DNA of 64,000 nucleotides from an uncultured Acetobacteraceae bacterium (GTDB lineage Bacteria > Pseudomonadota > Alphaproteobacteria > Acetobacterales > Acetobacteraceae). Below are positions 1 to 10,113 of this stretch, one piece after another. How positions within the stretch are numbered: position 1 is the stretch's first letter; each line of letters begins with the position of its first letter. The stretch is taken from assembly GCA_903918315.1 (NCBI GenBank), contig CAIXEA010000091.1, positions 1 through 64,000 of the forward strand, read 5' to 3'. The position numbers and the translations under genes were made by a program. The notes beneath the pieces were generated by a model that searched no databases, was not told the DNA's origin, and worked only from the letters and a program-made list of their open reading frames with translations.

Positions 1-42
1 CACAACCAGCGCCCAGTCGTCGTCCGTCATCCGTGTCAGCAT
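1..42 (-). CDS. 5' end of an unidentified gene, cut by the window edge
   Basis: An ATG at 42 on the minus strand opens a frame that reads MLTRMTDDDWALVV and then leaves the window. An AGGGAG element lies about ten bases before the ATG, and the start is only 31 bases behind the stop of the methyltransferase at 74, so this looks like the next gene of the glycan operon. Fourteen residues cannot identify a family. Two guesses are possible: a GNAT/PseH-like acetyltransferase, whose N-termini often read like this and which would suit the locus, or an IS5-type transposase, whose N-termini often carry a T-D-x-x-W pattern. Neither is established. Confidence 0.45.
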   Translation of the reverse strand, partial: MLTRMTDDDWALVV

Positions 43-73
43 GGTCGGCTCCCTGAAACCGACCTCCTATGAG

Positions 74-820
74 TCAGACAACAGAGCGCGCCGGAATCCC
101 CAAAAATGGCATATCAGGGATTCCGTCCACACGGCCTAGCATGTAGCACCCTTCAAGGTAGCCGGGGCTGATGATATCCGTCGCGAGCAGCCGATCCCAT
201 TGGAAATTGGCAAGGGCTTTGAAGAATATGCCAGAGCGGTGCAAGGTGCGCAGGCCGGCCGAGGCCGCGTCCCGCTCTAATGTGTCGAGTGAATAGGTGG
301 TGCGATGACCATGCTCCCGCTCAGCGGGCGTCACAGCGGCATTGTGCGAGATTAATCCCATCTTCACGGCGATCTGGCGGGATGGCGCATTCGCGTTCGG
401 GCAGACCAGGAAAAGCCTGCCTGTGTCACTGAGCCATTCCAGGTTAATCCGGCGGAGCAAGGCAACGGGATCGTCGAGATGCTCCAGAACATGGGTCAGC
501 ACGATATTGTCATAACGGCGCGGAAGTTGCGCGGATTCGAAGGTTGAATGGACGAAGGTCGCTCGCCCGGGCAGACTGGCACGAGCTTCATCGATGGCCG
601 CTGCAGATGCCTCCACGCACGTGACGTCATCAGAATGGGCCAGAAGGCGTTGTGTGAAATCACCTTTATAACTGCCAAGTTCGAGGGGCGAGCCGGGGAG
701 GAAAAAAGGTGTGAAGGAGCGAATCATGAATCCGTGCATGACATCGAAGTCAAAATTATAGGCGTATTTGCGGGACCCCGTGTCAGTAATCTCAGTGTCA
801 TAATCGCGTGTTATATTCAT
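74..820 (-). CDS. class I SAM-dependent methyltransferase of the glycan locus
   Basis: A 248-residue class I methyltransferase. Residues 46-53 read LELGSYKG, a SAM-binding motif I, followed by an acidic residue at the end of the next strand (CVEAS) and the post-motif segment IVLTHVLEHLDDP at about 107-119, typical of Methyltransf_11/23 proteins. The frame can be extended upstream to a TTG at 901 that overlaps the stop of the preceding GNAT gene, but the extra 27 residues are not methyltransferase-like, and the ATG at 820 is preferred; no strong ribosome site settles it. It is the last complete gene of a minus-strand glycan operon, so the natural acceptor may be a sugar or a glycan end. The acceptor is not deducible from sequence. 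Confidence 0.8.
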   Translation of the reverse strand: MNITRDYDTEITDTGSRKYAYNFDFDVMHGFMIRSFTPFFLPGSPLELGSYKGDFTQRLLAHSDDVTCVEASAAAIDEARASLPGRATFVHSTFESAQLPRRYDNIVLTHVLEHLDDPVALLRRINLEWLSDTGRLFLVCPNANAPSRQIAVKMGLISHNAAVTPAEREHGHRTTYSLDTLERDAASAGLRTLHRSGIFFKALANFQWDRLLATDIISPGYLEGCYMLGRVDGIPDMPFLGIPARSVV

Positions 821-897
821 AGCGTGTCGTGATCTTTCCAATAGCAGGCAAACTGGTCGAGGTTGGCAATCGATGCTACGCGCCGGCGCATGGTCGT

Positions 898-1389
898 TCA
901 AGGGCGGGTTGGACGGGAGGGCGGGTGGCGTCCATTAACTGTCGGAAGTTCGCGTATCATGGTGAGGTCTTGCTCCTCGCTTTGGCCAGGGCGAAAGCCG
1001 TGTTTCGCATAGAGCTGCCTTGCGATCTGGTTTAGTTTCGCCACCCGCAGGGTCACCTGGGTGAATCCAAGGCCGGTCGCGTGGCCGAGGCAGAGGTCCA
1101 TCAGGCGGAATCCGATCCGTTGGCCTTGCCGATCGGGCAGGACGCTGACGCTGGAGATGAAGACTGTCCGTGTTTCGGGGCGGTTGAAATAAGCGGCGAC
1201 CAATCCCACCAGTTCGGGGCCGGCCCATGCTTCGAACCGTGTTGCGAAGTTCGCCAGCCTTTCGGCGTAATCCCGGATTGCGACGCGTTGGCTCAAGGGT
1301 GGGACGAAGTGCGCATCACAGGCGGCCAGATGGGTCGCGATGTCGTCTGTCGCCGCGCGGTTCAGACAAAAATCGATGGCATCCATCAT
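898..1389 (-). CDS. GNAT-family N-acetyltransferase
   Basis: 163 residues with the GNAT fold signature: a beta-strand with VSVLPDRQGQRIG at 81-93, where the Q-x-x-R-I-G part forms the acetyl-CoA pyrophosphate loop, then an amphipathic helix and the YAKHGFRP motif B region at about 128-134. Its start overlaps the stop of the beta-propeller gene at 1386 by four bases (ATGA), so the two are translationally coupled. In this glycan operon the likely role is acylation of an amino sugar, possibly the product of the aminotransferase at 4043-5193, but that link is inference. The C-terminal tail is proline- and arginine-rich and may be unstructured. Confidence 0.8.
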   Translation of the reverse strand: MMDAIDFCLNRAATDDIATHLAACDAHFVPPLSQRVAIRDYAERLANFATRFEAWAGPELVGLVAAYFNRPETRTVFISSVSVLPDRQGQRIGFRLMDLCLGHATGLGFTQVTLRVAKLNQIARQLYAKHGFRPGQSEEQDLTMIRELPTVNGRHPPSRPTRP

Positions 1390-2345
1390 GGCTCCATCAC
1401 CGCCAGACCGAAGCCGTATCGGCCGAATTGGTTCCCATTATATAGTAAATAAATACGTCCCTGATTTACAAAGAGATGTGGATAACATTGCATGTCGCTG
1501 TCCCAGTCGCCTGGTGTTATCGTGAGCGGGATCATCATGTCATCGCGAGTCCAGACCTTGAGGTCGTCCGACCAAGCGTGGCCGATACGATAGCCGCGAT
1601 CGGGTTTCGTCCGAAAATCGAATGACTGCCGATAGCAGAAGGCCATGTGATGGCGGCCGTCAATTTCCACCACGGACGGCAGCGCCTGACTTTCGTCCTT
1701 TCCAATACGGTCGGGTATGATTTGCTGACCCTCGTCCTTCTGCCAGTTTATACCGTCGTCGGACAGAGCATGCCCAATCTTGTAGGTCCGGTCTGGTGGA
1801 GAATTTGCCGAGAAATTGCGCCATTCCGTACCGAAGATGTACCACATATGCAGCCGACCCAAAGCGGCTTTAACGAAACCATCTCCAACCAGGCAGGGTT
1901 CTTGAAGAGAGGCCGACAGCACCGGGCCCTCACCAACGCGCTGAAATGTCTCGCCGTGATCGTAACTTGTTGCCAGACCGATGCCGGTTTCGACAGAAAC
2001 GGAAATGCGGCGGCTCCAGCCGCAGGTATAGGCATGAATGCTATTTTCGTGTCGGAATACGTGAAATGGAAATATACCGTGTTCATCGAATGCGCCCAGG
2101 CCACCGAGCGGGATCACTTCATGAGAAGATATGCGAATCAACCGCCGAAAACACGGGTCGAAGTCGGCGAAGGCAACATGACTGAGCATTTTGCCGTTCA
2201 GCGGGTCCGCCGCGCGTGTTGAGAAATAGACGCGAACAAAATCGTCGAATACCAGTGTCTGGGGTGACTGCGCGAATGCGGTGCAGCCGTTTGGTAAGGC
2301 ATGTGCGGTTGGATCGAAAATACGTCCTAGCTTCTTCCATTTCAT
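1386..2345 (-). CDS. glycosidase-like five-bladed beta-propeller protein, copy A
   Basis: 319 residues, no signal peptide, made of repeated beta-propeller blades like those of GH43/GH32/GH130 proteins. Blade signatures G-x-A-x-S-x-D-G-x-x-W recur at about 122-133 (IGLATSYDHG), 190-201 (IGHALSDDGINW) and 254-265 (IGHAWSDDLKVW), and the protein ends with the conserved closing segment DWDSDMQCYPHLF...NGNQFGRYGFGLAV. LGGLGAFDEHG at 80-90 is shared with copy B. Relatives are found in O-antigen and capsule loci, usually as hypothetical glycosyl hydrolase-like proteins; catalytic activity has not been shown from what can be seen here. It lies 36 bases behind paralogue B and overlaps the GNAT start, so all three are probably one transcription unit. 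Confidence 0.75.
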   Translation of the reverse strand: MKWKKLGRIFDPTAHALPNGCTAFAQSPQTLVFDDFVRVYFSTRAADPLNGKMLSHVAFADFDPCFRRLIRISSHEVIPLGGLGAFDEHGIFPFHVFRHENSIHAYTCGWSRRISVSVETGIGLATSYDHGETFQRVGEGPVLSASLQEPCLVGDGFVKAALGRLHMWYIFGTEWRNFSANSPPDRTYKIGHALSDDGINWQKDEGQQIIPDRIGKDESQALPSVVEIDGRHHMAFCYRQSFDFRTKPDRGYRIGHAWSDDLKVWTRDDMMIPLTITPGDWDSDMQCYPHLFVNQGRIYLLYNGNQFGRYGFGLAVMEP

Positions 2346-2381
2346 CGTGCGGTCTCATTCATCTTTCAAGAAGTGGGCCTG

Positions 2382-3344
2382 TCATGCCAATTGCCCGTCA
2401 AGTACTGCCAAGCCGAAACCATGTCGTCCAACCTGGTTGCCGAGGTAAGCAAGATAGATCTGGCCATTCAATTCGAAGACGTGCGGGTAGCTGACCATCT
2501 CGCTGTCCCAGCCTTCGTTCGATATGTCGATGCCGCAGCGGTCGTCGTCGCGGGTCCAGTTCTCGAGGTCAGAACTGTAGGCATATCCGATGCGATAGCC
2601 GAATTCCCGTGAGCGGTAGTGGCTGCTAAAACGATAACAAAAGAACATGTGATAGCGCCCGTTGGCGTAGAAGACATCGGGGCTCGCTTGCGCTTCGTCC
2701 GGTTCGATGCGGCTTTCGATCAGGTCGCGATTGCACTTGCGCCAGTTCAGGCCGTCGTCGGAGATCGCCATCCGTATCTTGTAAATGGGTTCCGGACGGC
2801 CATCGACGCGCTTCCAGGCTCGCCCGGCGATGTAGAATAGCTGCCACTGGTCAGCGAACCGGCGGATTTTCGGACCACTCAATACGAATGGTTCATTAAG
2901 CGAATAGGGCAGGACCGGGCCGGGTCCGTTCTTGGTGAAGGTACGCCCGCCGTCATGGCTGGTTGCAACGCCGATTGCGGTGTTGAATGGCGTGGACTCG
3001 CAGCGTGTCCAGCCGGCGTAATAGGCGCGCAACCCGTCTTCGCACGGGATGACGGATACGGGATAGGTTCCGAACTCGTCGAATTCCCCCAAGCCGCCGA
3101 GCGGCAGGATCGGACCGTCGGCCAGGGCAAGCACCCGGGTTGGATCATTCCGGTCGAGATCGACGTAAGCGGAATAGGACACATATCGCCCGTTTGCATC
3201 GGCGGGTGGTCTACAGGAAAAATAAACCCTTAATCGGTCGTCCATCAGCAGGGTCGCGGGGGCCTGCGCGAATTCCTTTAGCCAGGGGCGCCCGGCAAAA
3301 TCCACCGGATCGAAAATTTTTCCAATTTTATGCCATTTGAACAT
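2382..3344 (-). CDS. glycosidase-like five-bladed beta-propeller protein, copy B
   Basis: 320 residues, clearly homologous along its whole length to the neighbour at 1386-2345. Shared landmarks are the start (KWHKIGKIFDP), LGGLGEFDEFG at 82-92, the blade motifs IGVATSHDGG (124-133), IRMAISDDGLNW (190-201) and RIGYAYSSDLENW, and the end WDSEMVSYPHVF...GNQVGRHGFGLAV. No secretion signal is present, so it acts in the cytoplasm unless exported another way. The start is three bases behind the stop of the WbqC gene. The pair must be an old duplication because identity is patchy. A sugar-nucleotide or lipid-linked glycan is a plausible ligand; hydrolase, phosphorylase or pure binding roles are all open. 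Confidence 0.75.
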   Translation of the reverse strand: MFKWHKIGKIFDPVDFAGRPWLKEFAQAPATLLMDDRLRVYFSCRPPADANGRYVSYSAYVDLDRNDPTRVLALADGPILPLGGLGEFDEFGTYPVSVIPCEDGLRAYYAGWTRCESTPFNTAIGVATSHDGGRTFTKNGPGPVLPYSLNEPFVLSGPKIRRFADQWQLFYIAGRAWKRVDGRPEPIYKIRMAISDDGLNWRKCNRDLIESRIEPDEAQASPDVFYANGRYHMFFCYRFSSHYRSREFGYRIGYAYSSDLENWTRDDDRCGIDISNEGWDSEMVSYPHVFELNGQIYLAYLGNQVGRHGFGLAVLDGQLA

Positions 3345-3347
3345 GGG

Positions 3348-4046
3348 TTACTCGTATTTCCAGCCTGATTGCAGAATTGCCCCAATTGTCTCGGATGAAT
3401 TAAACATCATAACATCAATGATAGATAGCCATGGAACGAAGGGCGCTTTGAATTGTTGGTACTCGAAGGGTATGGATCGCATGAAGCGCAATTCGACTCC
3501 TCGTTCGGCAAATGCCAATTTTGAATAGAGGTCCAGGCCGCCGATGGGATTGACGTAGACCTGGGCGTGGGTTTCGTCGCAGAGGGCCAGTATTTTGTCT
3601 TGTGCCCTGAGCGAATGATCGATTGCGAACGTCGATGAGACCCGAATCCGTGTCGTTATCGAAAGATGATTGCAGATTTTTGTGATCGAATTCACTGTGA
3701 ACTGAAAAAGATTGTGGTCGTTAAAAAGCAGAATGTCTTCGAGAAGACAGAAAATATCGCGGAAGAAAGGCGCCCTGCGGTACGCATTCTTGATCTGTGA
3801 TAGCAATTTATGTGGATCAAAGTCGGTCGCCAGACGCCGATCGGCTACGAAGAGCGAATCTGAAGCAGTCTTGAGCGGAAGTGACAGTATGACGTCCTTG
3901 CCATCGCGCAGAATTCGATTGCGGTTGATCCAACCCCGTTTGGTATATTTGATATTATCGTAGACGATAAAGAGGTCGGTGTTGGCGATCAGCTGGAAAT
4001 AGCCTATATAGGGCATAAAATAGGGCTGCATGATTGCAAGCCTCAT
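3348..4046 (-). CDS. WbqC-family protein
   Basis: 232 residues matching the WbqC-like family throughout: the N-terminus MRLAIMQPYFMPYIGYFQ is the family hallmark, followed by DNIKYTKRGWINRNRIL at about 30-46, the basic segment around DGKDVILSLPL, and VYVNPIGGLDLY in the C-terminal half. WbqC proteins occur in O-antigen and exopolysaccharide clusters and have been linked with amino-acid or acyl decoration of aminodeoxysugars; the biochemical step is not settled. The start overlaps the stop of the sugar aminotransferase by four bases, so the two are coupled, which supports a shared 4-amino-sugar substrate (inference). Confidence 0.85.
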   Translation of the reverse strand: MRLAIMQPYFMPYIGYFQLIANTDLFIVYDNIKYTKRGWINRNRILRDGKDVILSLPLKTASDSLFVADRRLATDFDPHKLLSQIKNAYRRAPFFRDIFCLLEDILLFNDHNLFQFTVNSITKICNHLSITTRIRVSSTFAIDHSLRAQDKILALCDETHAQVYVNPIGGLDLYSKLAFAERGVELRFMRSIPFEYQQFKAPFVPWLSIIDVMMFNSSETIGAILQSGWKYE

Positions 4047-5193
4047 TTGTGTCCGCCCTCTGACAGTTTGCGGATGATCGAGCAGATCTCGTCGACAATT
4101 CCGATGTCCAGATCGGGAAAGATCGGAAGGCAGAATACTTGTGCCGCGGCGGTTCGGGCAGCGAGCAGATGTTCTGGCTTTGAGGATGGTAAACCGCGAT
4201 ACATCGAAAAATCTGAAATGAGCGGATAGAAATAGCGCCGTCCGATAATTTTGTGTGATTTTAGAAGGTCGTTGAGCGAATCGCGGGATATTGGAAAACG
4301 GTCATCAACCAATATCGGGAAATAGGCGAAGTTACGGCGGGTTTCGCCTGCTGGGCTCAGGCATGTAATCCCGCGCGCTCCATGTAGACGCATGCGGTAG
4401 GCGGCGTCGATGTGCCCACGTTTTTCGATTTGCTCATCCACGTATTTGAGTGCAGCAGTCCTAGCGCCGAGTTGAACTCGCTCATTTTGCCATTGATGCC
4501 GATAGCTACGACATTGGTCTCACCGGCGTGACCAAAATTCTTGAGGTAGTCGATGCGGGTTTTGCTTTTCGCGTCCGGACAAATGATGGCGCCGCCTTCG
4601 AACGTATTGAAAACCTTCGTGGCGTGGAAGCTGAGCACCGATAGATCGCCGTGGCGCAGGATGCTACCGCCCTCGTCGCGCACCCCGAATGCATGAGCGG
4701 CATCATAGATGACCCGCAGATTATAGGTATCGGCGATCCGTCCAATGGCTTCCACGTCGCACGGGTGTCCATAGCAATGGACCGGCATGATGGCCGTTGT
4801 TTGCGGCGTGATGGCTGCTTCAATACGGGTTGGGTCGAGGTTCAGCGTGACCGGATCGATGTCGACGAAGATAGGTCTGAGGCCGTTCCAAAGAAGTGAA
4901 TGTGATGTCGCGACGAATGAGTACGGCGTGGTGATGACCTCGCCTGTGACGCGCAAGGACTGCAGCGCGGTGATCAGCGCGATCGTGCCATTGGTGAAAA
5001 GGGCGATATGCTCCACGCCAAGATAATCGCACAGGGCCTGTTCGAGTTGTTGATGGAATGGGCCACCATTGGCGAGGATGCGGCTGTTCCAGATCTCCTG
5101 GAGATAAGGCAGGAACTCTTCGAGCGGCGGCAGGAAGGGCTTGGTAACATAGGTCGTGCTATCAGCCATGGTTGCCTGCTTCGCATCTTTCAC
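4043..5193 (-). pseudogene. DegT/DnrJ/EryC1-type sugar aminotransferase with a frameshift
   Basis: A PLP-dependent sugar aminotransferase resembling VioA-type dTDP-4-keto-6-deoxyglucose transaminases. The first part (5193 down to about 4451) shows the substrate region VTKPFLPPLEEF, DAAHAFG at 164-170 with the PLP-facing Asp, and SFHATKVFNTFEGG with the Schiff-base Lys at 193. After ALGLL the frame breaks: the expected continuation (LKYVDEQIEKR, HIDAAY, NFAYFPILVDD, YFYPL) is read in another frame from 4450 to 4043. Restoring one base at the 4450/4451 junction would give a normal protein of about 383 residues. Without it the product stops at 4357 and lacks the C-terminal domain. GTG at 5193 or ATG at 5169 could be the start. 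This is either a real inactivating deletion or a sequencing error. Confidence 0.8.
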
Positions 5194-5368
5194 GCTGGAT
5201 TTGTGGCGGTTTTGTCATACAATCCTGATCTGCCGGAGACGGCCTGGCCAGCGCCATGCTGCCATGCCCCGTGAGCGGCGTATAGTGAATGGCGCTCGGT
5301 TGTTGGGGGCAGGCGGTCCAGGCCGTCCAGGCCGTTGGCTCTGGCCACCCCATCCCCCCTGGACAATT

Positions 5369-5378
5369 CCCCCCCCCC
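5369..5378. repeat. run of ten C in the aminotransferase/secD divergent spacer
   Basis: A homopolymer of ten C lies about 50 bases before the secD start inside the 234-base spacer between the divergent aminotransferase and secD. The rest of the spacer is GC-rich with short imperfect GGCCGTCCA-like repeats at about 5308-5335 and shows no gene or RNA that could be recognised. Such runs change length by slippage and are also prone to sequencing error. Confidence 0.7.
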
Positions 5379-5427
5379 ACCGCATAGGACCGAACGACGC
5401 AGACCTTAGGACTCCCGCGACACGCCC

Positions 5428-7005
5428 ATGATGTATTTCAGCCGCCTGAAGACCTACGCGATCCTCGGCGCCTGCCTGCTCGGCCTGCTGCTGTGCGTTC
5501 CCAATCTCATGCGCGCGCCGAACGGCTGGCTGCCGTGGCGGACGGTGCATCTCGGCCTGGACCTGCAGGGCGGCAGCTATCTGCTGCTGGAAGTCGATAT
5601 GAAGGCCGTCGTGAAGGAACGCCTGGACAGCATGGTGGACGGGGTCCGCCAGGCTCTCCGGCCGAGCGGCCTTTTTTACCAGACGCTGGAAGCCCAGACC
5701 GATCAAAATCGCGTGCTTCTGCGGCTGCGTGACCCGGGGAAGGTCACCGCGGCGCTCGGCCTGCTCAAGCCGCTGGTCTCGTCCGATAATCCCACCGGGG
5801 TGCCCGACGTGCAGCTCCTGGCGCAGGATGATGGCAGCATCACCTTGACGTTGTCGCCGGTCGCGCTGCACAGCCGGGCCGCAGGGGCGGTGCAGCAATC
5901 GATCGAAATCGTGCGTCGGCGCATTGATGAAACCGGTGTGGTCGATCCCCAGATTCTACAGCAGGGGGAGGGGCGAATCGTTGTCCAACTTCCCGGTATC
6001 GGCGATCCCAACCGCATCAAGCAGTTGATCGGCAAAACCGCCCATATGACCTTCCGGCTGGTTGATGAGACCGCGACCGCCTCCGCCAGCGGCCTGGCGC
6101 CGCCGGGTGTTGATTTCCTGCCGATGGCCGATCGCGGCGGGGAGAAGATCGCTGTCCGCAAGCGCATCGATGTTGATGGCGCCGATCTGACGGATGCGCG
6201 GGCCGGGACGGATTCCCAAACGGGGGAGTGGGTGGTGAATTTCACCTTCAACTCCACCGGTGCTCGCCGCTTCGGCGATATCAGCAAAGCCAATATCAAC
6301 CACCGCTTTGCCATCGTGCTTGATGACAAAGTCATCAGCGCGCCGGTCATTCGCAGTGCGATCACCGGCGGGCGCGGTCAGATCAGCGGCTCGTTCACCG
6401 CCAGTTCAGCCAATGACCTGTCGGTCCTGCTGCGCGCCGGGGCGCTGCCGGCGCCACTGACGGTGATCGAGGAACGCAGCATCGGTCCCGAACTGGGCGC
6501 TGACAGCATTCGCGCGGGCGCGATCTCGCTCGCGGCGGGGTTTATCCTCGTGATTGCCTTCATGGGGGTGTTCTACGGGCTGTTCGGCTGGTTCGCGAAT
6601 TTGGCGCTGCTGGTCAACCTGGTGCTCATGCTGGCGGTGATGTCGCTGATGGAGGCGACTTTGTCGCTGCCCGGCATGGCCGGTATCCTGCTCACGCTCG
6701 GCATGGCCGTGGACGCCAACATCCTGATCAATGAGCGCATCCGGGAGGAGCAGAAGCTCGGCAGGCCGCCGTTGCAGGCGCTGGAACATGGGTTCAGCCG
6801 CGCCTTTCATACCATTTTTGACAGCAACGCGACCGCCTTCCTGGCGCATGTGATGCTGTTTGCCTTCGGCTCCGGCCCGGTGAAGGGCTTCGCCGTCACG
6901 ATTACCCTGGGGATCGCGACCTCGATGTTCACATCGTGGATGCTCACGCGGTTGTTGGTGGCGCGCTGGTATGTCGCGCATAAGCCCAAGCTGTTGCCGG
7001 TCTGA
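5428..7005 (+). CDS. secD: protein translocase subunit SecD
   Basis: 525 residues, the usual length for a non-fused SecD. The first transmembrane helix is at about 10-25, followed by the family motif LGLDLQGGSYLLLEVD (43-57), the large periplasmic P1 region with RIDETGVVDPQILQQGEGRIVVQLPG, and five more membrane helices from about 360 to 515 including the conserved GMAVDANILINERIREE segment, whose Asp and Arg belong to the proton path. With SecF it uses the proton gradient to pull preproteins out of the SecYEG channel on the periplasmic side. secF begins eight bases after the stop. A yajC gene, which often precedes secD, is not present directly upstream. Confidence 0.97.
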   Translation: MMYFSRLKTYAILGACLLGLLLCVPNLMRAPNGWLPWRTVHLGLDLQGGSYLLLEVDMKAVVKERLDSMVDGVRQALRPSGLFYQTLEAQTDQNRVLLRLRDPGKVTAALGLLKPLVSSDNPTGVPDVQLLAQDDGSITLTLSPVALHSRAAGAVQQSIEIVRRRIDETGVVDPQILQQGEGRIVVQLPGIGDPNRIKQLIGKTAHMTFRLVDETATASASGLAPPGVDFLPMADRGGEKIAVRKRIDVDGADLTDARAGTDSQTGEWVVNFTFNSTGARRFGDISKANINHRFAIVLDDKVISAPVIRSAITGGRGQISGSFTASSANDLSVLLRAGALPAPLTVIEERSIGPELGADSIRAGAISLAAGFILVIAFMGVFYGLFGWFANLALLVNLVLMLAVMSLMEATLSLPGMAGILLTLGMAVDANILINERIREEQKLGRPPLQALEHGFSRAFHTIFDSNATAFLAHVMLFAFGSGPVKGFAVTITLGIATSMFTSWMLTRLLVARWYVAHKPKLLPV

Positions 7006-7013
7006 GGCCTGTC

Positions 7014-7973
7014 ATGTTCATCAAACCCCGTCTTCGCCTTGCGCCGGACAATACCCGCATCAACTTCATGCGGGGCCGGATCATGGGCCTCGTGGTCTCC
7101 GCCGTGTTGTCATCGGCATCGATCATCATGTTCTTTTACCCAGGCCTCAAACTGGGAATCGATTTCTCGGGCGGGATCGTGATGCAGGTCCGGACCCCCG
7201 GCCCGGCCGATTTCAGCCAGATCCGCAACGCGTTGGCGGCCGAACATATCCCCGAACAGGGCGTGCAGCGCTTCGGGGAGGAGACCGAGGTCCTGATCAG
7301 GTTGGCGGCCCAGCCCAACGAACAGGCAACGCAGCAGGCGGTGAACCGGGTGCGCGCGGCGCTGGAGGCCACGGTTCCCGGCACAAAGGTCATGCGCACC
7401 GATGCCGTGGGCGCGAGCGTCTCGGCCGAGCTGTTCCAGAACGGCCTCCTGGCCCTCGGCATCAGCCTGATCATGATCCTGGTCTACATCTGGTTCCGAT
7501 TTGAGTGGCAGTTTGCCGTCGGTGCAGTGGTCACATTGGTGCTCGACATCACCAAGGCCATTGGCTTTCTGGCCCTGACGCGGATCGAATTCGATCTGGT
7601 GATGGTCGCGGCGATCCTGACCGTGCTGGGCTATTCCACCAACGACAAGGTGGTGGTCTATGATCGCGTTCGGGAAAATCTACGTAAATACAAGACCATG
7701 CCGCTACGCGAGCTGATCGAGCTGTCGATCAATGAGACCCTGAACCGCACCCTCGGCACCTCGATGACGGTGTTCCTGGCAAGCGTGCCGCTGGCGATTT
7801 TCGGCGGCGCGTCGATTGCGGGTTTCGCGCAGGTGATGTTGTTCGGTATCGTCGTCGGCACGTCGTCGTCGATCTTCATCGCCGCGCCCATTCTGCTGTT
7901 CCTGGGTGAGAGCCGTTTGCGCCGGGATACCGCCGCCCCTGTCGTGAAGGCGGCCGCGGCAACCGATCCTTGA
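7014..7973 (+). CDS. secF: protein translocase subunit SecF
   Basis: 319 residues, partner of SecD. The sequence opens with a basic cytoplasmic end, a membrane helix at about 23-43 and the SecF hallmark LGIDFSGGIVMQVR (47-60). Five further helices follow a periplasmic loop; VLGYSTNDKVVVYDRVRENLR is the SecF form of the conserved cytoplasmic/TM4-5 motif, and SINETLNRTLGTS precedes helix 5. It forms a complex with SecD that drives late steps of Sec export. Its TGA stop overlaps a TTG that may start the next gene. Confidence 0.97.
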   Translation: MFIKPRLRLAPDNTRINFMRGRIMGLVVSAVLSSASIIMFFYPGLKLGIDFSGGIVMQVRTPGPADFSQIRNALAAEHIPEQGVQRFGEETEVLIRLAAQPNEQATQQAVNRVRAALEATVPGTKVMRTDAVGASVSAELFQNGLLALGISLIMILVYIWFRFEWQFAVGAVVTLVLDITKAIGFLALTRIEFDLVMVAAILTVLGYSTNDKVVVYDRVRENLRKYKTMPLRELIELSINETLNRTLGTSMTVFLASVPLAIFGGASIAGFAQVMLFGIVVGTSSSIFIAAPILLFLGESRLRRDTAAPVVKAAAATDP

Positions 7974-8962
7974 TCGGGCGGCGCGGGCTCGTCGCAGGCG
8001 CAGCCCTGCTGGCTGCGCACTGGTCCGCTGGTCGGCCCGCCGGCGCGGTGCGCGTCACACCCGGTATCCGGCATATGTCGATGCTGATCGGCGCGGCGCT
8101 GGGCACCGGCCTGGACGCCTCGGCCCGGGCCTTCGCGCCGCTCTTCGCCCATAGTCTGCTCGGCACCGAGGTCACGCCCCGCAACATCCCGGGCGATCAG
8201 GGGATGAGTGCCATCCATGCCTTGATCGCCGCGCCGCCCAATGGGTTGACGCTGGGATGGATGACCAGCCCCACCTTGTCCGCGCGCATGGTGGATCACA
8301 GCGGCGACGAGCCCCTGTTGCCGCGGTTGCGCCTGCTGGGCGCGGTCGAGCGGGAGCCGGTTGCATTCGTCTGCCCGGCCGCGGCGCCTTTGGAATCGGT
8401 CCAGGACCTGATTCAGCGTTCAAGCACCGATCAGGATGCGGTTCCGCTGGGCACGCCCCCGCCCGGAAGCCCGCCGCATCTGGCAGCGTTACGGTTGCAG
8501 GTCGTGGCGCAGACGCGGCTGAGCATTATTGCCTTTCCCTCCGCCGCCGCCGCCCGGCAGGCGGTGATCGCCGGCAATGTCGCCGCGGCGGCCCTGGCTC
8601 TGTCGGATGTTTTCGCCGCCCTTCGGGACGAAAAGCTGGTGGGTATCGGCATCGCCGCCCGCAAGCGGTCCGAGGCTTTGCCCGATGTCCCGGTGCTGCA
8701 GGAAGCGGGGGTGCCGCTGTCGGTCACCATTCGGCGCGGCCTGGTCGCGCCGGCGGGCCTGAGTGATGAGATGGCCGCGCATCTGACCGAGGCGATGCGT
8801 ACCATCGTCGCCGACCCCGAGTTCCGCGCGCTCGGCGATGCCAGCGGCTTCCTTCCGGCCTGGATGGATGGCCCGGCCTGGACGGCGCAGGTGGATAAGG
8901 AACGCGGCGATCTCGCGAAGCTATGGGCGACGGATCCCTGGCTGCCGTCGAATGGCGGATAG
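7970..8962 (+). CDS. Bug/TctC-family periplasmic binding protein
   Basis: 330 residues of the tripartite tricarboxylate transporter (TTT) binding-protein family. The N-terminus IGRRGLVAGAALLAAHWSAG looks like a twin-arginine-type signal. The mature part has ligand-loop features of Bug proteins (NIPGDQGMSAIHALIAAPPNGLTLG; LPDVPVLQEAGVPL; RRGLVAPAGL; ADPEFRALGDASGFLP). The start is taken as TTG 7970, which overlaps the secF stop, because this keeps the signal peptide; it has no strong ribosome site, so translation may be coupled to secF. No TctA or TctB membrane subunit is visible in the window, so it is an orphan receptor or uses a carrier encoded elsewhere. The ligand is unknown. Confidence 0.8.
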   Translation: MIGRRGLVAGAALLAAHWSAGRPAGAVRVTPGIRHMSMLIGAALGTGLDASARAFAPLFAHSLLGTEVTPRNIPGDQGMSAIHALIAAPPNGLTLGWMTSPTLSARMVDHSGDEPLLPRLRLLGAVEREPVAFVCPAAAPLESVQDLIQRSSTDQDAVPLGTPPPGSPPHLAALRLQVVAQTRLSIIAFPSAAAARQAVIAGNVAAAALALSDVFAALRDEKLVGIGIAARKRSEALPDVPVLQEAGVPLSVTIRRGLVAPAGLSDEMAAHLTEAMRTIVADPEFRALGDASGFLPAWMDGPAWTAQVDKERGDLAKLWATDPWLPSNGG

Positions 8963-8973
8963 GCCTTGCGGGT

Positions 8974-10113
8974 CTAAACCGGCACGTAAACCTTCCCATC
9001 GAACAGCCGCCGCGCGGTGCGGTAGAACGCACCGCTATGGGCGGTCCAATGCCCGCCCGTATCGCGCGACACATCCGCATCCACCGTCAGAATGCCCGAA
9101 GGCATGCCAATTCGGATCGAAGCGGCGGCCTGCCCGCCCAGCATCTGATGGGTCACCGTGCCCTCGATCCGGGCCGCGACCGCGGTGCAGAGCGAGGCCG
9201 TCAGGGGCAGGGCCCGGTGCGGCTGCCCATTCGACAGGAAGCGGGCGGTGAGGTCGATCTGAGACGCCAGAGTCCCCTCTCCGGACAGGGTGGGGGAGTC
9301 CATCGGTGGCGCCACGAAGCCGATGATGGGGACGCCATGGATGGTCCGGGCTTGCGCATCGTCGCGCGCGATGCCCATGGCGACCGACGCGGCCCGTCGG
9401 ATGGCTTGCAGTCTGTCCAGCAAGTCCGGGTTCGCGTCCAGCGCCTCCGGCAACTCCCGCCCGGTCAGACCCAGGTCGCGGGCGCGGACTAAGACGCAGG
9501 CATTGGCGGCATCGACCATCGAAACCTCGATCGCGCCGAGGCCGGGCACATCCAGCACGTCGGTTACATGGCCCGTCGGTAGTAGCGTGCCGGTGGTTGC
9601 GCCGCCCGGTGTCAGGAAATCGAGTTTGACCGGTGCGCCGAACCCGGCAACGCCCGGGATCGCCATCGTGCCGTCGGTTGCCGCGCGTCCATCGACCAGA
9701 GGAAAGGTGGAACGGATGATCTTCTTCGTGTTGGTGTTGAAGATCCGCACCACCGCCATTTCACCGTTCGGGCGGACCAGGCCCTCATCAACCGCGAAAG
9801 GCCCGACGGCGGAGCTCATGTTGCCGCAATTCCCGCGGTAATCGACCGCGGCCTCTTTGATCTGCACCTGGGCAAAGGTGTAGTCGATGTCCGCGTCGTC
9901 GCGTGAGGAAGGCGCCAGCACGCACACCTTCGACAGCGACGATATCCCGCCCCCCATGCCGTTGAGCTGGCGGCCATTCGGATCGGGGCTGCCCATGGCA
10001 TTGAGGAAGATCGGATCCCAGGCCGCGCGGTCGGGCAGATCCTTGGCATGGAACATGATCGCGCGGCTGGTGCCGCCACGCATGAACACGGCGGGTAGGG
10101 CAAGCAGCGGCAT
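8974..10113 (-). CDS. PrpF-family isomerase (4-oxalomesaconate tautomerase-like)
   Basis: 379 residues of the PrpF family with the diaminopimelate-epimerase-like double fold. Visible family marks are VFMRGGTSRAI (9-19), LNGMGGGISSLSK (50-62) and DYRGNCGNMSSAVG (91-104), where the Cys of NCGN corresponds to a catalytic cysteine position. Members isomerise double bonds in aconitate-like tricarboxylates (2-methylaconitate isomerase PrpF, 4-oxalomesaconate tautomerase GalD). Neither prpC/prpD nor gal genes are beside it, so the substrate is uncertain. It converges with the TctC-type gene (12-base gap), and both families relate to tricarboxylates, which may or may not be meaningful. An AGGA element precedes the ATG. 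Confidence 0.85.
   Translation of the reverse strand: MPLLALPAVFMRGGTSRAIMFHAKDLPDRAAWDPIFLNAMGSPDPNGRQLNGMGGGISSLSKVCVLAPSSRDDADIDYTFAQVQIKEAAVDYRGNCGNMSSAVGPFAVDEGLVRPNGEMAVVRIFNTNTKKIIRSTFPLVDGRAATDGTMAIPGVAGFGAPVKLDFLTPGGATTGTLLPTGHVTDVLDVPGLGAIEVSMVDAANACVLVRARDLGLTGRELPEALDANPDLLDRLQAIRRAASVAMGIARDDAQARTIHGVPIIGFVAPPMDSPTLSGEGTLASQIDLTARFLSNGQPHRALPLTASLCTAVAARIEGTVTHQMLGGQAAASIRIGMPSGILTVDADVSRDTGGHWTAHSGAFYRTARRLFDGKVYVPV

Follow-up and report, generated by a model that had tools for sequence, protein, structure and literature searches.

A conserved gene set pairing WbqC with tandem propellers, probably for an unusually decorated amino sugar, survives as a decaying copy in an Acetobacteraceae genome

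What might an operon make that places two paralogous β-propellers between a WbqC family protein and a GNAT/methyltransferase pair? The question is raised by the first 5,193 bases of the window, i.e. the 64,000-nucleotide stretch of an uncultured Acetobacteraceae genome analyzed here (Table 1). The gene set probably serves to make an amino sugar with unusual decorations, destined for a surface glycan. The genes, their sizes, the four-base overlaps and the gaps of 3-36 bases claimed in an earlier sequence-only reading are borne out by the window coordinates and by profile scores. The aminotransferase overlaps the WbqC gene by 4 bases, which is followed after 3 bases by the first propeller (PropA) and, after a further 36, by the second (PropB); the latter overlaps the GNAT gene by 4 bases. 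A 4-base overlap between the GNAT and methyltransferase genes exists only if the methyltransferase starts at a TTG at 901—in our judgement the in-frame ATG at 820 is to be preferred. The longer methyltransferase ORF (74-901) scores 62.9 bits against Methyltransf_23 (cut-off 27), and the best NCBIfam match of the GNAT is RimI, under the cut-off of that family (rimI, 36.3 versus 86.4). The two ORFs of the aminotransferase match PF01041 at profile positions 5-232 and 238-359 with 240.6 and 51.1 bits, respectively, each above the cut-off of 19.8. Scored as two unjoined ORFs (228.6 and 50.1 bits), they do not reach the cut-off of 650 for the DesI-type 4-aminotransferases (TIGR04427).

Table 1. Features at the start of the window
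Feature	Position	Strand	Remarks
DegT/DnrJ/EryC1/StrS sugar aminotransferase	5193..4043	-	two ORFs, 4357-5193 and 4043-4441 (frameshift)
WbqC family protein, 232 aa, frame intact	3348..4046	-	PF08889, 223.6 bits versus cut-off 21.3
Propeller A (PropA), 320 aa, frame intact	2382..3344	-	structure model and fold matches
Propeller B (PropB), 319 aa, frame intact	1386..2345	-	separate clade, support 99
GNAT N-acetyltransferase, 163 aa	898..1389	-	Acetyltransf_1, 57.7 bits versus cut-off 20.7
Class I SAM methyltransferase, cut short at the 3' end by insertion sequence	74..820	-	Methyltransf_23
End of multicopy insertion sequence	1..138		coincides with contig end

With the aminotransferase, WbqC, PropA, PropB, GNAT and methyltransferase, the window has one instance of a conserved set. 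The same order is seen in two Rhizobium plasmids, one Tateyamaria plasmid and most of the 80 highest-ranking among 369 genome relatives. Each of these 80 loci has WbqC, two propellers and the GNAT; the aminotransferase is present in 71 and the methyltransferase in 77. This uniformity is inflated by taking only the top-ranking loci and by choosing them through PropA, and many of them are metagenome bins, making the host names unsure. With a greedy gene caller, 68 of the 80 loci yielded a propeller and 28 the complete uninterrupted order; in most of the others, the caller had missed genes that overlap. Real departures from the order are found, for example, in L116, L140, L147, L155 and L173, where the methyltransferase or GNAT gene has moved, and in L100, L124 and L145 the aminotransferase lies downstream instead. 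The recurrence of the set in distant taxa is more than chance would produce, and chance or artefact was rejected as an explanation on this ground.

The copy in the window is decaying. Its aminotransferase, a single CDS in the three plasmid relatives, is frameshifted, and its methyltransferase has lost its 3' end to an insertion sequence, which occupies the window from position 1, the first base of the contig (C91), to about 138. Bases 1-73 match 28 places in the same genome, the window copy included (14 whole, the rest partial). In nineteen of these 28 matches, the start falls on base 1 or 2 of a contig, and across the seven copies compared the repeat extends to window position 138-140. Relatives of the methyltransferase end in about 20 other residues that are absent here (PDLCSSIFLMCE in most of the 13 listed of 72).

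A fairer count than that from the 80 selected loci comes from an even draw of 397 genomes of the phylum. It gave 41 propeller hits, of which 27 remained when 14 weak partial matches were left out, and 26 when the locus under study was also set aside. WbqC occurs in 19 of the 27 genomes with full propellers versus 51 of the 370 others (Fisher p 4e-10). The neighborhood survey proposed by the sequence-only reading as a potential refutation did not refute it: WbqC is found in the fetched regions of 17 of the 26 loci, 14 times at no more than 3 kb, and a DegT aminotransferase in those of 23, of which 19 have it inside that distance; both are present in all eight loci with tandem propellers. The co-occurrence of propellers and WbqC thus stands for 17 of the 26 loci but fails for the other nine, where the partner is mostly a hexapeptide (LbH) acetyltransferase (8/9). 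Hence, the propellers do not depend on WbqC. The idea of an amino-deoxysugar modification operon to which both paralogous propellers belong is supported. WbqC also keeps company with amine-forming genes where propellers are lacking: a DegT gene is present in 17 of 20 such WbqC regions, which were picked down the list by one of us from 19 of the 51 such genomes. Among titles and opening lines of abstracts in the open-licence literature, we found no account of a pairing of propellers with WbqC.

WbqC itself has long been a name in search of a function, with no paper on the latter detected by title or opening lines of the abstract in the open-licence literature. Its structure model (pLDDT 96.6) is nearest in fold to BshC, with a Z-score of 14.5 over 224 of 232 residues at 3.4 Å and the next-ranked match at 8.2. 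Foldseek alone gives no significant score for the pair (E 0.02, probability 0.63), a profile comparison with BshC (PF10079; hhalign) built on only three BshC rows yields a probability of 0.8%, and in Pfam at E-values up to 1 the protein matches WbqC alone. The link is therefore one of structure, and may be a feature of the HUP class at large. We propose, based on the modeled fold, that WbqC is an amide ligase of the HUP class.

This proposal has a precedent in thiol cofactor biosynthesis. In the bacillithiol (BshB-BshC-NmbA) and mycothiol (MshB-MshC-MshD) pathways, a free sugar amine receives an amino acid from a HUP-fold ligase and an N-methyl or N-acetyl cap follows: BshC is taken to add the cysteine to the amino sugar of bacillithiol, and MshD caps mycothiol with an acetyl group, paralleling the proposed GNAT step. 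As far as the accessible parts of the respective papers go, NmbA places a methyl group on the nitrogen of the cysteine in bacillithiol (PMC12719100), a counterpart to the methyl addition proposed here, and the mycothiol cysteine ligase is a paralog of the Cys-tRNA synthetase (PMC2922099). The parallel lies in the order of steps and in the BshC fold on which WbqC models; the products of these pathways, however, are small thiol cofactors rather than surface glycans, and we detected no sequence similarity between WbqC and BshC. A PIG-L de-N-acetylase was found in five of 98 scanned neighbors of propeller-less WbqC genes, one of the five being a phage gene. These 98 comprise three phage genes and 95 of the 109 neighbors from 15 of the 20 regions, the gene caller having lost WbqC in the other five. 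In two Vibrio phages the PIG-L gene is directly followed by WbqC, and no propeller was found when sought in these clusters.

The amide-ligase reading, which is only structural, competes with one in which WbqC would be a conventional N-acyltransferase dependent on CoA or ACP, its product being a modified sugar of the viosamine/anthrose type as in the viosamine island of Pseudomonas syringae pv. tabaci. That island (vioA, vioM, vioT, vioS, vioB, vioR and acp), in the accessible part of its description, likewise joins an aminotransferase, an N-acyltransferase and a methyltransferase, generating a methylated N-acylated viosamine that ends the flagellin glycan (PMC3927599). It differs in having genes for ACP and a 3-oxoacyl-ACP synthase as well as a transferase of 1173 residues; its seven-gene list has no propeller, and the term WbqC is absent from that part of the text. 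Genes for ACP or 3-oxoacyl-ACP synthase are found neither in the six-gene set of the window, beside which the contig ends, nor in the three annotated plasmid copies. Further, no acyltransferase is among the 50 matches listed for the WbqC model, and the set already includes a GNAT. We consider an acyltransferase role possible but unlikely. Flagellin was also tried as a general acceptor and rejected: a regular expression for a flagellin-like motif matched in three of 229 loci (L112, L150 and L219).

The two propellers share 45% identity, and PropB forms a clade of its own in the tree; at position 157 all 78 PropB rows have an aspartate and all 69 PropA rows a glycine. They are old, separate paralogs. 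PropA (pLDDT 96.8, pTM 0.93) models as a five-bladed propeller of the GH130/GH43-like kind, closest to BT_0996 (5mt2; Z 29.6) and to GH130 phosphorylases (9gph and 9fj8; Z 28.9), with 278 residues of the latter aligned at 2.6-2.7 Å and 16% identity. The glycosidase-like label in the sequence-only reading is not supported as a GH43 identity. Neither propeller passes any Pfam or NCBIfam cut-off: for GH43 (PF04616, cut-off 32.2) PropA reaches 13.8 bits and PropB is not listed, for GH130 (PF04041, cut-off 26) they reach 18.6 and 13.6 bits, and hhalign against GH130 rows gives no useful match (probability 4.3%). That they are secreted, polysaccharide-degrading GH43-like enzymes lying in the operon by chance might be suggested by their remote similarity to GH130, GH32 and GH43, and by public records that call some relatives glycosylase or exo-alpha-sialidase. 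We rejected this identity as very improbable, given these scores and the lack of a signal peptide discernible by eye in either protein; their adjacency to the other genes is, moreover, kept across phyla and on viral contigs. Domain-fused propellers were also looked for, and none was found with seven profiles, none of them for the window methyltransferase.

The aspartate of the GH130 EDPR motif, which we take to be catalytic, aligns in one sequence register of this repeat protein with position 221, occupied by serine, leucine or glycine in PropA, PropB and phage rows. As regards the acidic triad of GH43, looked for in blades 1-3, the pre-proline residues of blades 1, 2, 4 and 5 (28, 94, 221 and 286) are non-acidic in the sequence alignment of these rows, which has other conserved acids. 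R45, D89, W112, E151, W177, R238 and D280 are near-constant across the three forms. One possibility is that the propellers are non-catalytic, binding the modified sugar or docking the acyltransferase as sensors or scaffolds; consistent with this, no canonical catalytic set is apparent by sequence, and an LbH or GNAT acyltransferase lies near the propellers in 23 of the 26 evenly drawn loci. However, one alignment (A2) of nine PropA, PropB and phage rows has 70 positions, many of them polar, without any variation, which we take as more typical of an enzyme, and a purely binding role seems unlikely.

What kind of enzyme, then, might they be? The family GINT1_N (PF24793) matches over 70 profile columns (probability 92.9%, 33% identity), but has an invariant A-D-P in 17 rows where the window-type propellers have A-[SLG]-P, again placing an aspartate opposite position 221. 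Its proteins are also longer, with amino-terminal parts lacking an assignment in seven of ten scanned. A presumed link of GINT1_N to formyltransferases in bacteria was dropped, as none of the ten had a formyltransferase domain; one had a GT28-type domain. Compared to GH130 phosphorylases and hydrolases, and to GT108, the propellers are of similar size with five blades; unlike GH130, they are found in biosynthetic operons. GT108, in the accessible parts of two papers, comprises five-bladed propellers like GH130 that act as glycosyltransferases and phosphorylases (PMC8476585, PMC8950772), indicating, by a likeness drawn from description, that this type of fold can be a glycosyltransferase.

On the other hand, a separate GT2 is seen in 16 of 29 scanned downstream genes (those passing filters among the 80 loci; a separate neighbor scan took in 73 of 140 drawn at random from 587, after most minus-strand ORFs had been set aside as probably spurious), so that the propellers need not be the transferases. 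They could instead be editing enzymes, namely cytosolic hydrolases or phosphorylases that clear nucleotide or lipid carriers of sugars whose modification is wrong or incomplete, with the neighboring GT2 performing the transfer. The fold, nearest to hydrolases and phosphorylases, would fit such a role, as would D89, E151, E217 and D280, which vary little or not at all among the PropA, PropB and phage rows. Tandem loci keep two differing copies together, though, and the canonical GH130 acid is missing from its aligned place; we therefore regard editing as possible but unlikely.

The module is not confined to cellular genomes. Viral contigs carry a single PropA-type propeller with WbqC and a GNAT-methyltransferase. 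Of 35 viral loci of the PropA type, 29 have the GNAT and the methyltransferase within a single ORF; Pfam finds both domains in the three examined. The viral loci number 71 in all, are not dereplicated, and follow the IMG/VR labels as given. Two phage propellers had no PHROG match, two queries of a cultured-phage collection returned no propeller, and a search of viral structure models had only remote propellers among the matches listed.

Taken together, the best explanation, to which we assign slightly less than even odds (about 0.45), is a horizontally acquired mobile cassette, now decaying in the window, for the synthesis and attachment of a heavily decorated amino-deoxysugar. The data establish the order of the genes, its conservation, their association, the folds of the models and the decay of the window copy; for the activities, the sugar and its acceptor we infer the following route. 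The DegT enzyme would aminate a nucleotide-bound 4-keto-6-deoxyhexose to a 4-amino sugar, and the HUP-fold WbqC would activate an amino acid or similar carboxylate and form an amide between it and the new amine. The GNAT could then acetylate the free amine of the amino acid, and the methyltransferase add a methyl group. PropA and PropB, probably cytosolic, would have the completed sugar as their substrate, and are most likely transferases or phosphorylase-like enzymes from an uncharacterized family with the GH130/GH43/GH32 fold, and a downstream GT2 or other transferase would help place it on the surface glycan. In a bolder and rather improbable form, WbqC would be the glycan counterpart of BshC and MshC joining amino acids to sugar amines, the paired propellers a new family of nucleotide-sugar-dependent transferases on a GH130-type fold, and the whole a module, exchanged by bacteria and phages, through which surface glycans or virions acquire a methylated, peptide-like sugar cap.

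For the polysaccharide clusters in which WbqC is a long-standing presence, the BshC-like fold makes it a testable amide ligase, an activity that could explain the amino-acid-decorated sugars of O-antigens. Carriage of the module by phages bears on how these alter host or virion surfaces. The propellers emerge as a widespread family tied to one biosynthetic step and, with an old pair kept in tandem form, may hold a new carbohydrate activity.

The six-gene set described by the sequence-only reading lies on the minus strand at the window start with the gene sizes, overlaps and gaps reported there, and its DegT aminotransferase, WbqC, GNAT and methyltransferase all score above the Pfam cut-offs. 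The two propellers, PropA and PropB, have no Pfam match above cut-off, only weak ones to the GH130, GH32, GH43, GINT1_N and BNR models; the NCBIfam beta-1,2-mannobiose phosphorylase model likewise matches them weakly (40.8 and 28.6 bits, cut-off 450). The nearest NCBIfam match of the GNAT is RimI, below that model's cut-off. While this observation was right, its general interpretation, a glycan operon with glycosidase-like propellers that suggests an aminodeoxysugar cap, is right only in part.

Coordinates of the cassette and of related features in the window and in fetched loci
Feature	Source	Positions	Strand
Six-gene cassette	window	74-5193	minus
Insertion sequence end	window	1 to about 138	
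Ten-G run	window	5369-5378	minus
GT2 counterpart	own genome, contig C127 (L305)	4662-5295	
Short DegT-like protein	viral locus L013	6668-7306	
Short DegT-like protein	viral locus L005	13132-13788	
PIG-L/WbqC row	Vibrio phage VH2_2019 (L263)	4324-9588	
PIG-L/WbqC row	Vibrio phage V-YDF132 (L264)	3324-8237	
GINT1_N propeller fusion	one genome (L232)	235-2337	

The window copy appears to have been acquired and to be decaying, since its aminotransferase gene is broken, an insertion sequence has cut into its methyltransferase gene, its G+C content is low (53-57% in the first 4 kb against 61-70% in every 2-kb step past 6 kb) and a propeller, sought in 32 genomes of the same genus, is present in none. 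The aminotransferase, a single CDS in three plasmid relatives, is split over two reading frames, which cover neighbouring stretches of the DegT profile (5-232 and 238-359). A ten-G run occurs between this gene and secD, in the stretch linking the cassette to secD-secF. The final methyltransferase residues, kept in relatives, are replaced by the end of a multicopy insertion sequence, which runs as far as 138-140 in each of seven compared copies and is a probable cause of some of the breaks in the assembly. The first 73 window bases match 28 places in the own genome (this one counted), 14 of them in full. Of the 28 matches, whole or partial, 19 start at base 1 or 2 of a contig. In several relatives a 306-residue GT2 follows the methyltransferase (seven rows, 78-85% identical to one of them), and its own-genome counterpart, on another contig, consists of two overlapping ORFs whose amino-terminal end is lost at the contig end. 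The single frameshifts may be assembly errors but the insertion is not, and the window copy is probably dead.

The order aminotransferase-WbqC-PropA-PropB-GNAT-methyltransferase-GT2 recurs on two Rhizobium plasmids, and a Tateyamaria plasmid carries the same six genes followed by GT61. Among the best 80 of 369 relatives on genome contigs, some with early contig ends and some with moved genes, WbqC, two propellers and GNAT are found in all 80, the aminotransferase in 71, the methyltransferase in 77 and close matches to the 306-residue GT2 (over 500 bits) in 14. By record title their hosts are mainly Alpha-, Beta- and Gammaproteobacteria, with Bacteroidota, Acidobacteria and others, and many are metagenome bins. 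In a fairer sample of 397 genomes drawn evenly from the phylum, 41 have a match and 27 a full-length propeller (nine tandem, including the own genome, and 18 single); WbqC is present in 19 of these 27 versus 51 of the 370 others (Fisher p = 4e-10). In the 26 of these loci that remain once the own locus is set aside, the fetched region contains WbqC 17 times, an acyltransferase of the LbH or GNAT type 23 times and a DegT aminotransferase 23 times, the counts within 3 kb being 14, 23 and 19; all eight tandem loci have WbqC and DegT, and six have GNAT. From these counts, WbqC is a steady partner of the tandem form, and an acyltransferase the steadiest partner of the propeller family as a whole. 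Bernardetia has another form, aminotransferase-WbqC-methyltransferase-acetyltransferase-propeller, whose acetyltransferase is a hexapeptide (LbH) protein.

Two scans of viral contigs recovered 10 and 71 propeller loci. The 71 include no two-propeller locus; an acyltransferase is found in all, WbqC in 66 (58 within 3 kb) and DegT or a short DegT in 68. This short protein, of about 210 residues, matches the amino-terminal part of the family only, and its own profile has matches in 53 of the 71. GNAT and methyltransferase matches fall on a single ORF in 29 of 35 PropA-type viral loci, and Pfam sees both domains in the three examined. The cassette adjoins a terminase and a weak portal match in one viral locus (L006) and baseplate and tail-fibre genes in another (L005), and the 90 ORFs of five further loci include matches to PhoH, dUTPase, clamp-loader and thymidylate synthase, singly or in pairs, and several to glycosyltransferases. 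Two queries of cultured phage records returned no propeller.

With the confident WbqC model Foldseek gave no significant match, BshC being the most probable among the matches listed (0.63). VIA-align matched the model to BshC with Z 14.5 over 224 of 232 residues, versus Z 8.2 and below for class I tRNA synthetases and nucleotidyltransferases, all of these being HUP-class proteins. BshC is taken to add cysteine to a sugar amine in bacillithiol. A sequence relation between WbqC and BshC was sought and not found. The gene setting of WbqC agrees with a BshC-like reading: DegT occurs in 17 of 20 picked WbqC regions lacking propellers, PIG-L de-N-acetylases make up 5 of 98 scanned WbqC neighbours (one being the phage gene), and a gene with a PIG-L-like motif adjoins WbqC in two loci (L272 and L273). 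Vibrio phages VH2_2019 and V-YDF132 each carry a PIG-L gene that leads directly into a WbqC gene, an order like that of BshB-BshC. Next in the row come genes for an unnamed protein of 283 residues, a methyltransferase-like protein (in VH2_2019 its Pfam match is below cut-off), another WbqC that is more remote, and a glycosyltransferase. This row is a separate sugar- or DNA-modification set, and its neighbours in VH2_2019 include genes with the annotations RecA, RuvC and Noc.

A quick-method tree of 59 propeller rows sets PropA and PropB apart with support of 97 and 99. The PropB clade holds Proteobacteria, Bacteroidota and Acidobacteriota, and the PropA clade Proteobacteria, one Bacteroidota row and phage copies; as both span more than one phylum, and PropA also phage copies, the duplication is, on this tree, old. 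Across 207 sequences in four groups, R45, W112, W177, R238, D280 and Y286 are near-constant, at 88% or more in each group; N303 is Asn in all groups, yet Asp in 16 of 69 PropA rows. The A, B and phage groups are marked by Q27, R114, E217, Q219, R244 and H288, with consistent A versus B differences at 28, 44, 91, 94, 109, 115, 120, 157, 159, 221, 285 and other positions. The solved folds nearest to the very confident PropA model are BT_0996 (5mt2, Z 29.6), a GH137 enzyme, and the GH130 phosphorylases (Z 28.9), with GH43, GH32-like and GH117 rows closely behind GH130. In sequence alignments the Asp of the GH130 EDPR and GINT1_N ADP motifs falls at position 221, where A, B and phage rows have no acidic residue; the propellers may have a catalytic layout other than that of GH130. 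One genome encodes a GINT1_N propeller fused to a carboxy-terminal domain of GT28 type. No signal peptide is visible in the propellers, which, like their biosynthetic setting, points to a cytosolic role. The same fold serves as a glycosyltransferase in GT108. We consider transfer or phosphorylase-like action slightly more likely than editing or binding.

In the proposed pathway the aminotransferase would act first, WbqC would perform a ligation, GNAT and methyltransferase would add caps, the propellers would work on the capped product and a variable transferase would act last. RimI- and RimJ-kind enzymes acetylate amino-terminal residues, so such GNATs would suit an amino acid attached to the sugar; the GNAT in four viral loci is of another kind, labelled RimJ-like (Acetyltransf_3 in one of them). 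Among 29 downstream genes scanned, 16 match GT2 and four polysaccharide flippase families, and among scanned neighbours there are GT2, GT4 and polysaccharide genes, along with three that have GT41 domains; hence in many cases a polysaccharide is the probable acceptor, and the acceptor varies. The locus is more interesting than the sequence-only reading stated, on account of its breadth, the phage forms and the fold of WbqC, and given the decay of the window copy its function is to be read from the intact relatives.
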